A stretch of 64,000 nucleotides of DNA, from contig JAZKBU010000009.1 in assembly GCA_040388375.1 (NCBI GenBank), positions 62,001 to 126,000 on the forward strand, written 5' to 3'. Position 1 is the first letter of the stretch, and every line of letters starts with the position of its first letter. The translations under genes were made by a program, and so were the position numbers. This DNA comes from Bacteroidota bacterium. Its GTDB lineage: Bacteria > Bacteroidota > Bacteroidia > UKL13-3. Of this stretch, positions 326-3,902 are shown one piece after another. The notes below the pieces were generated by a model that saw only the letters and a program-made list of their open reading frames with translations, searched no databases and had not been told where the DNA came from.

Positions 326-355
326 TTGTATACGTAAATAAATAAAATACTTTTG
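326..355 (+). promoter_or_regulatory. Bacteroidota-type promoter for the FRG/DUF262 operon
   Basis: TTG at 326-328 is followed after exactly 19 bases by TACTTTTG at 348-355, an exact match to the -33 TTG / -7 TAnnTTTG consensus of Bacteroidota. The FRG start codon lies 20 bases downstream, so the leader would be very short. The match is read from the sequence; activity is inferred. Confidence 0.7.
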
Positions 356-375
356 TGATATAAAGCCTAACACCA

Positions 376-1158
376 ATGACAGAACCCATTAAGACAATAA
401 CACAATTCCTTGAAAATATCGAAGAATTGACAACTAAAAACGAAAAGCTTTGGTTTCGTGGTTTAGAGAGCAACAAGCATAAACTTTGTCCTTCTATTTT
501 TAGACCGCCTTTTTCTTCATCAAACGAAGAACAATTTTTAAACAAATTTAAGTCAAGAGCAATCCCTTTTATAGAATCAAACTATCAAAACTATGACTAT
601 TGGCATTGGTTGTTTTTGATGCAACATCATGGAGTACCAACAAGACTTTTGGACTGGTCTTCAAGTGCTATAACAGCTTTAGCATTTGCAGTTTTATATC
701 GTGATGGAAAATATAAAGATGATGATGCAGTAGTATGGTGTTTGAATCCAGTTATCTTAAACGATGAAAATCGTATCCGTATGAAATTGTCTCCAACAGA
801 AATCATACCTGATATTACTCTCAAAAAGGAATTAATGCCAACCTACAAATTCAATCCTACTGGAATTGTTAAATATCCAATTGCAATCACAGGACCATTA
901 AACAGTGCTAGAATTGTTGCACAAAAAGGAACATTTACATTATTTCCAGATACCACTGCTTTCAATCTTGAAGAAACAGATGACTCAAGTAGTTTTTTGA
1001 CAAAAATTACTATTTCTAAAGAAAGTGTAGAAAATATAAAAAGACAGCTTTCAACTTTGGGGGTTACTGAGAGTACAATTTTCCCAGAACTTCCTAGCCT
1101 TGGACTTGAAATTAAAAGAGAATTTATTGATTCATTAAATCCACTAACTAATGTTTAA
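376..1158 (+). CDS. FRG domain-containing protein
   Basis: A 260-residue protein with the hallmark FRG motif at residues 27-29 (in LWFRGLES) and the second conserved block QHHGVPTRLLDW at 83-94, followed by an S/A/T-rich helix. These define the FRG domain (Pfam family named for the motif), which fills most of the protein. There is no signal peptide or membrane segment, so it should be cytoplasmic. The family's biochemical activity is not settled; members often occur in accessory and defence-like loci. The start at 376 sits just after a consensus promoter. The gene overlaps the following DUF262 gene by 8 bases (1151-1158), implying translational coupling and joint function. The domain call is secure; a defence role is inference. 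Confidence 0.9.
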   Translation: MTEPIKTITQFLENIEELTTKNEKLWFRGLESNKHKLCPSIFRPPFSSSNEEQFLNKFKSRAIPFIESNYQNYDYWHWLFLMQHHGVPTRLLDWSSSAITALAFAVLYRDGKYKDDDAVVWCLNPVILNDENRIRMKLSPTEIIPDITLKKELMPTYKFNPTGIVKYPIAITGPLNSARIVAQKGTFTLFPDTTAFNLEETDDSSSFLTKITISKESVENIKRQLSTLGVTESTIFPELPSLGLEIKREFIDSLNPLTNV

Positions 1159-2269
1159 AATATACAAACTTGGGGAATTTGGAGATTTTAATATTGAAAC
1201 AATAATCTCCTTGCGTAATTCAATAGATTTTCACCCCGTCTATCAAAGATATGGTGGTATTTGGAGTAAAGAAAAAAAACAGCTTTTCATAGACACAATA
1301 CTCAATGATTATGATACCCCTAAATTTTATTTTAATTATTTTTCTGACTCATCAAACCCACTAAACTCCAGCAATAAAATATATGCTATAGTTGACGGAA
1401 AGCAGAGATTAGAGGCAATTTTTGACTTTTTAGCAGACAAGTTTCCTTTATCACAAGAATTTAGATTTTATGATAATGAAAACTTACAATTAAAGAATTT
1501 AAAATATTCTGAGATTGCCGAAAAACACCCTTTTATTTTATCTAAATTTTACAATTACAATTTAGACATTATCCTTATCGATACTGATGATGAAGACAAG
1601 CTAGAAGAATTGTTTTTAAGATTAAATGGTGGAGAAGCATTGACAAATGCGGAAAAAAGAAATGCAATCGGTGGAGAGTTTAATCGAAAAGTAAGAGAGA
1701 TTGTCGAAACTCATAACTTTTTTACAAATAAATTAAGATTCAACAACCCAAGATATCAGTATCAAGACCTGTTCATAAAACTTGCTTTGACCGAGCTTAA
1801 TGACGAGTTGGTATCATTCAAAAACAATATTCTTTACGATTTTATAAAAGATAATAAAAGTTTTGATTCAAATATTTCTAATGTTTTTACCAAAGTTGAA
1901 AACAATCTAAATGAATTCAAAGAATGTTTTAAAGACAAGGATCCGTTGTTATCATCGAAAGGTGTTTTACCAGTGTTCTATTTTTTCTATACACGACATC
2001 TCCCTGAAAATGAAATGTTCTACAGTTTTTTAATTGAGTTTGAAGAAATAAGAAAGGAGAATAGAAAAAAAGAAAGTTCCCAAGCCAATCCTGTTCTTGT
2101 TGAATATGATAGATTAAACCAGCAAGGAGTTCATTTAGAAAAATCATTAAGACTAAGATATAAAGTAATTGAAAAGACATTCAATCATTTTAAAAGGTTT
2201 GGCTCACTAGCGGATATTCAAATTGAAGAAGTGCCGAATTATGAAGACGATGAAAATATCAGCACATAA
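1151..2269 (+). CDS. DUF262 domain-containing protein (GmrS/ParB-like nucleotide-binding fold)
   Basis: A 372-residue protein with DUF262 signatures: HPVYQRYGGIW (residues 28-38), the catalytic-type DGKQR motif (82-86, the family's DGQQR) and LFLRLNGGEALTNAEKRNA near 153-171. DUF262 is the NTPase/ParB-like half of GmrSD-type modification-dependent restriction enzymes and of other defence proteins. The C-terminal part (about 220-372) is helical and lysine/glutamate rich. I see no DUF1524 HNH motif, so the usual nuclease half is absent and the partner is the overlapping FRG protein. The stop codon TAA is itself the outer arm of a palindrome (2267-2355). Family call firm; antiphage role inferred. 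Confidence 0.88.
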   Translation: MFKIYKLGEFGDFNIETIISLRNSIDFHPVYQRYGGIWSKEKKQLFIDTILNDYDTPKFYFNYFSDSSNPLNSSNKIYAIVDGKQRLEAIFDFLADKFPLSQEFRFYDNENLQLKNLKYSEIAEKHPFILSKFYNYNLDIILIDTDDEDKLEELFLRLNGGEALTNAEKRNAIGGEFNRKVREIVETHNFFTNKLRFNNPRYQYQDLFIKLALTELNDELVSFKNNILYDFIKDNKSFDSNISNVFTKVENNLNEFKECFKDKDPLLSSKGVLPVFYFFYTRHLPENEMFYSFLIEFEEIRKENRKKESSQANPVLVEYDRLNQQGVHLEKSLRLRYKVIEKTFNHFKRFGSLADIQIEEVPNYEDDENIST

Positions 2270-2355
2270 CAGCACCTACCAAAAAGGCGGGGTTTCGTTA
2301 TCCAAAGACAGTTTTGTGGTAAAAGTACCGCCCTTCGGGTAGCTGCAAACCGTTA
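2267..2355. other. attC-like imperfect palindrome over the DUF262 stop codon
   Basis: An 89-base element with nested complementary arms: TAAC 2267-2270 with GTTA 2352-2355, CTACC 2276-2280 with GGTAG 2338-2342, and GGCGG 2286-2290 with CCGCC 2328-2332, separated by unpaired bases and a 37-base loop. This layout (conserved outer TAAC/GTTA, interrupted arms, start inside the gene's stop codon) is that of an integron attC recombination site or a related Bacteroidota intergenic element. The flanking bases match the attC core consensus only partly, and no integrase gene is in the window. Confidence 0.5.
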
Positions 2356-2387: not shown

Positions 2388-2699
2388 CTACAACTTGCCT
2401 ATCGGCTTTTGCTTCTTTAACTCTTCGTAAATCTGTTTAGCCAGTTGGTGCATGTTGTTATAATTATTTTTAAGGCTTATGTGTTTACTCTTGTTTAAAA
2501 GACCTACGTAATAGGTATGCACCTGTTCGTTTTGGGTTTGGTTGGTATAACCCATTAGGGTCATTACCTTATCGCCAATGTTGGTATAGTATTGGTCAGC
2601 GTCCAAGTCTAAACTCATTAATGCATTAACCAGTTTGGTATTAATTAAATCATCTAAAATAAGAGAGGTAATAAATTTGTGTTTGTTTTTAAGTTTCAT
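2388..2699 (-). CDS. Hypothetical protein, 103 residues
   Basis: A predicted soluble, mostly helical protein, rich in Lys, Asn and Leu, with no signal peptide and no motif I recognise. It is transcribed away from the XRE-type regulator gene at 2894. The shared 194-base region between them carries four phased direct repeats, which suggests that regulator controls this gene. I cannot assign a function. The start at 2699 is the first Met in an uninterrupted frame, and the codon use resembles the neighbouring genes. Confidence 0.55.
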   Translation of the reverse strand: MKLKNKHKFITSLILDDLINTKLVNALMSLDLDADQYYTNIGDKVMTLMGYTNQTQNEQVHTYYVGLLNKSKHISLKNNYNNMHQLAKQIYEELKKQKPIGKL

Positions 2700-2893: not shown

Positions 2894-3109
2894 ATGACCG
2901 AATTAGGATTATTTTTAGCCAAAAAATCAGCGAGTAAGGCTGAAATTTCAAAGAAGACTGGAATTAGTAAATCTCGTATTAGCGAGCTTACCTTAAATAC
3001 TGCATCTCATTTAAGAGCAAAGGAACTTTACATGATTGCTTTGGCTATAGACACAGACCCTTGTGAATTGCTGAACTTCATCTGTAAGGATTTAAAATTA
3101 GATAAATAA
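2894..3109 (+). CDS. Small XRE/Cro-type helix-turn-helix regulator
   Basis: A 71-residue protein made almost entirely of one Cro/C1-type HTH. The segment SKAEISKKTGISKSRISEL (about residues 14-32) is the helix-turn-helix, followed by two further helices typical of the fold. It probably binds DNA as a dimer. The gene is divergent from the 103-residue hypothetical gene, and the phased repeats just upstream are candidate binding sites, so autoregulation is plausible. The ATG follows the last repeat copy by 42 bases. A strong terminator lies 32 bases after the stop. The target genes are unproven. Confidence 0.8.
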   Translation: MTELGLFLAKKSASKAEISKKTGISKSRISELTLNTASHLRAKELYMIALAIDTDPCELLNFICKDLKLDK

Positions 3110-3141
3110 TGTGAAGAAGGAATTTAGCTATTACTAAACAA

Positions 3142-3173
3142 AAAAGCCCTTGTACTTTCGTACAAGGGCTTTT
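3142..3173. terminator. Bidirectional intrinsic terminator
   Basis: A perfect 14-base-pair stem (AAAAGCCCTTGTAC with GTACAAGGGCTTTT) around a TTTC loop, with A and T tracts on either side. It sits between the convergent XRE gene (ends 3109) and the 234-residue gene (ends 3198) and can serve both. Confidence 0.85.
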
Positions 3174-3197
3174 ATTGTTTTAAAGATTGCTTACGGG

Positions 3198-3902
3198 TTA
3201 AACAATAGGAGCTGTAGGCTCATCCGGAGGGGTTGGGTTGTCGTTATCAACCAGCAACAAACCAAAGTTAAAGTAACTGTTAAAAGCTGCTTCGTTACCA
3301 ATAGTACGGGCAGCTATAAGCAGTACACAAGTGGTTAAATGCTCGGTTAATGCTTTTCTGTTTTTTTGCATTTCCGTTTGCGATGATTTTTTGCTGGATT
3401 TGGATGATACCTGTGTTTCCCTCGCATCCACATAAGCAGTTTGTAAAGTAGTGAGGTTGCGTACAAAATCGGCTGATAATTGAGCTGTGTATTTAGCAGC
3501 AGTAGCACTGTACCTATACAGCAATACTTTTATGCCCTCAACCGTAGCACCATAATACTCCCTAAGCCCCTGTGGGTAAAACTCGGTATAAATAGGTGTG
3601 TTTTTGCCAAATTTGGCTTTAATGGCGCCTTCTTCGCGGCCAATAAATTCTAAAATGGCATCGTAAGCATCTTGTCGGCTAATGGTGCCACCCTTTTGTA
3701 CGGCACTGCTCATAGCCAGCGTACCATAGGTGTTTACAAAATCCTGGTGCAAAGTAACCAGCAGCGTTTTGTCGGCTGTGGGCAGTACGGAGTTTTGCAT
3801 GGTAGTTAATCTGCTAATTAAATCGGTAGCAAATAAATTCAGTTCGTTTCGGCTAAAGGTTTGACTGCCGAACAAGTTTTTGGTTAGTTTTAAGTAATTC
3901 AT
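3198..3902 (-). CDS. Hypothetical protein, 234 residues
   Basis: A predicted cytoplasmic, alanine/threonine-rich, mainly helical protein. It has a low-complexity serine/lysine linker (SSKSSKKSSQTEMQKNRK) near residues 167-184 and a proline-rich C-terminal tail (NPTPPDEPTAPIV). There is no signal peptide or transmembrane segment, and I do not recognise the family. It ends at a shared terminator with the XRE gene. About 100 bases upstream of its start begins the 42-bp tandem repeat array (3999-4285), which therefore occupies its promoter region or the trailer of the metal-transporter gene. Confidence 0.65.
   Translation of the reverse strand: MNYLKLTKNLFGSQTFSRNELNLFATDLISRLTTMQNSVLPTADKTLLVTLHQDFVNTYGTLAMSSAVQKGGTISRQDAYDAILEFIGREEGAIKAKFGKNTPIYTEFYPQGLREYYGATVEGIKVLLYRYSATAAKYTAQLSADFVRNLTTLQTAYVDARETQVSSKSSKKSSQTEMQKNRKALTEHLTTCVLLIAARTIGNEAAFNSYFNFGLLLVDNDNPTPPDEPTAPIV

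Follow-up and report, generated by a model that had tools for sequence, protein, structure and literature searches.

Several described systems are built on a DUF262 protein. GmrSD and BrxU combine this domain with a DUF1524/HNH domain, and DUF1524 is also found in the phosphorothioate-sensing SspE, in which recognition of modified DNA triggers the DUF262 NTPase, which then activates the attached effector domain (PMC10952713). Menshen couples an NsnA-like DUF262 protein without DUF1524 to a separate partner, predicted to be an OLD-type nuclease (PMC10952713), and PD-T4-2 likewise has a DUF262 component without DUF1524. FRG proteins come from a different direction: according to PMC9503650, which cites Burroughs and Aravind 2020, the Frg family belongs to the ADP-ribosyltransferase (ART) superfamily and is a potential NADase immunity effector.

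The window (the whole 64,000-nucleotide stretch of DNA analysed) contains an FRG gene followed by a DUF262 gene. With GmrSD and BrxU the pair has in common the DUF262 domain, its DG[KQR]QR motif and the predicted N-terminal fold, but no DUF1524/HNH nuclease was found in the protein or noticed beside it, and the partner is FRG. The DUF262 fold is also common to SspE and the pair, which differs in having no DUF1524 and no ssp genes seen beside it. The layout resembles that of Menshen, a DUF262 protein lacking DUF1524 with a separate partner, but FRG stands in the partner's place and an OLD/TOPRIM gene was not recognised. PD-T4-2_A matched neither window protein at E<=1, though the PADLOC model matches other DUF262 proteins. 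PDC-S15, which going by its name is presumably a single-gene candidate, differs from the case here, in which FRG belongs to a fixed two-gene unit. No single PADLOC system was matched by both FRG and DUF262, and the literature searched yielded no paper on an FRG-DUF262 pair, in agreement with a preliminary description of this DNA that had called the pair undescribed as a defence system; an earlier mention is possible, for example in Burroughs and Aravind 2020 or Burroughs et al. 2015. The features of the locus are as follows.

326-355, + strand: match to a Bacteroidota-type promoter, TTG-N19-TACTTTTG (sequence pattern)
376-1158, + strand: FRG protein, an ORF of 260 aa with a predicted ADP-ribosyltransferase-like fold; proposed effector
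451-462, + strand: FRG motif W-F-R28-G29, lying in the first strand of the model (secondary structure, alignment)
622-657, + strand: QHHGVPTRLLDW, FRG residues 83-94 (alignment)
922-924, + strand: FRG Q183, invariant, just ahead of a predicted strand
1151-2269, + strand: DUF262 protein, an ORF of 372 aa with no HNH domain; proposed sensor/NTPase switch (ORF, PF03235, structural model)
1202-1666, + strand: GmrSD_N (DUF262) domain, ParB/Srx-like fold, residues 18-172 (PF03235, 3e-15)
1394-1408, + strand: predicted nucleotide-binding motif DGKQR, residues 82-86 (alignment)
1667-2200, + strand: all-helical C-terminal part in the model, residues 173-350, with no nuclease motif detected
2266-2357, + strand: attC-like repeat that follows the stop codon of DUF262 (related sequences at other sites of the genome)
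Upstream of the window: CBASS 4TM effector, cyclase and TmtA (L119 2149-7265, equal to 50149-55265 on contig 9 of the window's genome, G000)

Re-reading the ORFs reproduced the two gene coordinates and the 8-base overlap of the preliminary description exactly, and both reading frames are intact. At E<=1 the DUF262 protein matched PF03235 and no other Pfam family. Across an alignment of 56 homologues D82, G83, Q85 and R86 are invariant, and PF03235 was found in all 56, whereas DUF1524 (PF07510) was found in none, bearing out the earlier statement that the HNH half is missing. A specific check for DUF1524-type residues in the C-terminal part, by Pfam and by alignment columns, found none: no HNH-type His is conserved there, and the sole His-rich column (84%) has Tyr in the window. 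The AlphaFold2 model (pLDDT 90) matched BrxU, SspE, ParB-family CTP-binding proteins and DndI, the best structural matches being 7p9k and 7p9m (GmrSD/BrxU type); SspE (6jiv) aligned with Z 7.9 over 143 residues. The BrxU alignment ends at BrxU residue 431 of 580, consistent with a missing C-terminal nuclease in the DUF262 protein. The closest PADLOC model was NsnA (4.8e-20), which we take to be the Menshen component. We know of no demonstrated mechanism for a DUF262 protein that lacks DUF1524. One could suppose that the DUF262 protein does the cutting and that FRG is an accessory or modified-base-binding subunit, since some proteins of ParB/Srx fold have been proposed to act as nucleases (PMC4619093); we regard this as very unlikely, given that DUF1524 is the nuclease in the characterised GmrSD, BrxU and SspE and that the invariant D-G-x-Q-R residues correspond to the nucleotide pocket.

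The FRG protein matched PF08867 at 1e-21 (78 bits, against a Pfam cut-off of 25) and, among PADLOC models, only PDC-S15 (3e-56); an NCBIfam search gave nothing meaningful, and sequence searches returned no usable solved-structure relative of either protein. Burroughs and Aravind (2020; J Bacteriol 202:e00365-20) are reported to have already proposed the Frg family as ART-superfamily immune effectors. In the AlphaFold2 model of FRG (pLDDT 85) the best PDB matches were nearly all ADP-ribosyltransferases: PltA, heat-labile toxin A1, cholera toxin A1, Tpt1/KptA and the Rhs toxin TreX, and further pertussis S1, DarT, pierisin, ParT and VPA0770. These matches are weak (Z <=5.6, Foldseek E 0.07 at best) and by themselves suggestive of an ART-type fold. 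The ART assignment therefore draws on the fact that nearly every match is of one kind and on the published classification, which agrees, the protein also matching the Frg family of PMC9503650. R28 of the FRG motif is present in all 53 homologues that cover the position and is a candidate NAD-pocket Arg. H84, T89, R90, D93 and W94 are invariant across 54 homologues, and the full set of invariant polar residues comprises R28 (where covered), R43, H84, T89, R90, D93, N129, R179 and Q183, the last being a candidate third active-site position by inference. Position 96 is Ser in the window versus Glu in 50 of 54 homologues. No Glu was identified in FRG at the third position usual for ARTs, and catalysis may therefore differ or be lost.

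To determine how the two genes are distributed, we scanned 84,980 species genomes, one genome per species, for the DUF262 protein. This gave 61 DUF262 loci, 55 of which have FRG directly upstream on the same strand, a ratio that holds for this clade rather than for DUF262 proteins at large because the scan pattern was built from FRG-linked sequences. A 4-base overlap (ATGA) joins the two genes in 33 of the 55. The pair occurs in at least eight phyla, being present in Pseudomonadota, Bacteroidota, Campylobacterota, Verrucomicrobiota, Acidobacteriota, Planctomycetota, Bacillota and Thermodesulfobacteriota and in one metagenome-assembled genome (MAG) labelled archaeal; it is also present as annotated genes on a Hymenobacter plasmid. 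In a sample of the window's own phylum it was found in 3 of 296 genomes; as pattern scans miss members, its prevalence is a lower bound. The six loci without FRG are a contig that starts within DUF262 (L058), a 5'-truncated, decayed copy nested in the FRG-linked branch (L102) and four distant DUF262 proteins (L106, L107, L108 and L113), so that FRG adjoins DUF262 in every intact member of the clade. Viral contigs gave the same picture, with FRG adjacent in 15/15 close DUF262 relatives and 0/11 distant matches. FRG genes also occur in Peduovirus P22H1 (LR595870.1) and Salmonella phage SEN8 (KT630647.2), in whose records the window DUF262 query had no match.

The two genes have been inherited together. 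In the DUF262 tree the FRG-linked proteins form one branch (support 92/99) that otherwise holds only the one decayed copy, and FRG and DUF262 distances correlate in a mirror-tree comparison with r = 0.94 (best of 2000 permutations, 0.48). Between the window and its nearest relative (L053), dN is 0.17 for FRG and 0.22 for DUF262, while the synonymous sites are almost saturated; dN/dS is well below 1 for each gene, which shows purifying selection. The pairing is thus neither chance nor local, and it is old. Of the two findings that the preliminary description said would refute it, rare conservation of the pair and DUF1524-type residues in DUF262, neither was obtained. The tight overlap and fixed gene order would also suit a toxin-antitoxin pair in which DUF262 holds an FRG toxin inactive until phage takeover frees it, and ART toxins are known in such pairs, ParT, DarT and VPA0770 being among the FRG matches. 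However, DUF262 has an NTPase fold with a conserved nucleotide motif, unlike the usual antitoxins, and FRG genes occur without DUF262, for example in P2-like phages, so keeping FRG in check does not in general require DUF262. We consider a toxin-antitoxin pair unlikely, noting that it overlaps with a reading in which DUF262 is a sensor and FRG its effector.

The genomic surroundings support a defence role. The 273 neighbour ORFs at the genome loci included about 6 cytosine C5 methylases as well as several restriction enzymes of type II (Eco29kI-like, HinP1I-like and EcoRII-like). The methylases are the one neighbour type that we compared with a background, and then roughly: the family occurs about once per genome (118 genomes), which gives an expectation of ~0.1 among 273 ORFs against the 6 seen, taking ~3,000 genes per genome and with related loci not being independent. 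The window's genome has, 7-12 kb upstream of FRG-DUF262, CBASS genes (4TM effector and cyclase) and then a gene for the Tiamat-like TmtA. The check for defence genes in the neighbourhood thus turned up restriction-modification genes, proviral regulators and the upstream CBASS/TmtA genes.

On viral contigs the neighbours are integrases, CI-type repressors and DNA methylases, and at three loci (L145, L149 and L154) the gene 2-15 bases upstream, in the same direction, resembles a phage repressor by its sequence start. Residence in proviruses beside CI repressors and integrases would fit a regulatory or maintenance module of mobile elements with no part in defence, but the pair is common outside recognised proviruses too, where restriction-modification and CBASS/TmtA genes are found close by, and a position next to CI is also typical of superinfection-exclusion genes; we think such a non-defence function improbable.

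At three other viral loci (L148, L152 and L156) FRG is preceded, at a distance of 2-15 bases, by a C5 methylase read in the same direction, possibly a three-gene version with a self-marking enzyme. These methylases are relevant to the idea that DUF262 binds foreign DNA as GmrS and ParB do, and that FRG, instead of cutting it like an HNH nuclease, ADP-ribosylates it in the manner of DarT or pierisin. Where a GmrSD-type DNA reader would have its nuclease, this pair does have FRG, and DNA- or RNA-acting ARTs (pierisin, Tpt1/KptA and DarT) are among its structural matches. Yet the matches favour DNA-acting ARTs no more than protein-acting ones, the methylase is missing at most loci, and no macrodomain reversal enzyme was recognised in searches that were not aimed at one. 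We hold ADP-ribosylation of DNA by FRG to be unlikely, and the fuller version, restriction of invading DNA by this modification with, in some cases, an own cytosine methylase marking self, to be a little less probable still.

FRG is not the only neighbour that DUF262 has acquired. In related branches a SIR2-like partner is operonic with DUF262 (L005, L006 and L117): it lies directly upstream in L005 (407-2568) and L006 (1477-3563), and in L117 (2885-5882; Hymenobacter plasmid NZ_CP110137.1) an SspD-like gene, DUF262 and a ThsA-like SIR2 stand in a row on one strand, placing a phosphorothioation-type gene beside a DUF262-SIR2 pairing; the ThsA-like partner is of an NADase family. A HEPN-like gene (weak match to RiboL-PSP-HEPN) adjoins DUF262 in L007 (94-2115) and L008 (1441-3127), and an AAA ATPase is operonic with it in L009 and L113. 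HEPN genes have been recorded in operons with ParB-like genes (PMC3710099). All these operons have the layout of the FRG pair, DUF262 beside a possible toxic effector, but differ in effector fold and in DUF262 branch. FRG is therefore one of several exchangeable partners. The preliminary description had FRG in place of HNH; FRG is indeed the adjacent partner, but the phrase understates the range, which takes in SIR2, HEPN and AAA as well. The simplest reading is a shared sensor/switch, DUF262, whose effectors can be swapped, the one here having an ART fold. We suggest that DUF262 acts as an interchangeable front end that can be joined to four or more types of partner (FRG, SIR2, HEPN and AAA) in addition to HNH nucleases.

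We therefore favour, at somewhat better than even chances, a two-gene antiviral module in which an NTP-driven DUF262 sensor would license an ART-type FRG effector. By analogy with SspE, the DUF262 protein, as a ParB/Srx-fold nucleotide-dependent switch, would recognise a sign of infection, most likely foreign or modified DNA such as that of a phage, and NTP binding or hydrolysis would release or activate FRG. FRG in turn might destroy or use NAD+ or ADP-ribosylate a cellular target, and the infected cell would be stopped (abortive infection). The FRG family, widespread yet little understood, would thereby gain a constant partner and a role open to testing, and the pair makes the action of Frg on NAD+ directly testable. 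The two genes are found as a fixed unit across many phyla, in prophages and, in some genomes, in integron-like cassettes, and they most likely form an antiviral system. Confirmation would make it one that spans phyla and of which the tool libraries used here recognise just two unrelated halves.

Evidence for mobility comes from the flanks of the pair. The 3' repeat has relatives in the same genome (E = 3e-22, 2e-11 and 2e-5), each directly after a co-oriented ORF, and carries AAC...GTT ends in the fashion of attC. The preliminary description had called it an attC-like palindrome; its folding is no better than that of shuffled sequence (z = 0.19), so it is attC-like by position and ends and not by folding energy, and its reading as a cassette boundary rests on the genomic copies and on core sites. 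Such sites are seen in relatives, most clearly in four loci (L054, L069, L070 and L099), in which a core of 9-10 bases after DUF262 is the exact complement of a core 20-41 bases before FRG. The pair thus probably moves as a two-gene integron-like cassette in some Bacteroidota; in the window itself the 3' repeat is the one clear cassette feature. The promoter at 326-355, previously described as perfect, agrees with the Bacteroidota -33/-7 pattern and has a suitable position, but the window holds 4 such matches where chance predicts 2.6, so the match alone is not significant.

Elsewhere in the genome, related attC-like repeats follow various ORFs on contig 1, at about 142-233 kb, and on contig 5, at 63.1 kb (L127-L130 and L133-L136). 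Two tyrosine integrases of 356 aa each, which resemble integron integrase at a level below threshold, are encoded in the same part of contig 1. We do not claim a true integron integrase, as the model matches are sub-threshold here and also fell below the cut-off in 14/14 control genomes.

Downstream of the pair, a gene of 103 aa (window 2388-2699) has a second copy, 84% identical, on contig 1 (86375-86677); it matched no family and was found in none of nine genomes of the same genus. No empty insertion site was obtained from the same-genus genomes, which lack this gene and, for the gene upstream of the pair, have diverged relatives only. Further on, at 3142-3173, the window has a perfect 14-bp inverted repeat with a 4-base loop, likely a bidirectional terminator. 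This hairpin is the source of weak Rfam near-matches at 3027-3261, all of which lay over it and were below threshold.
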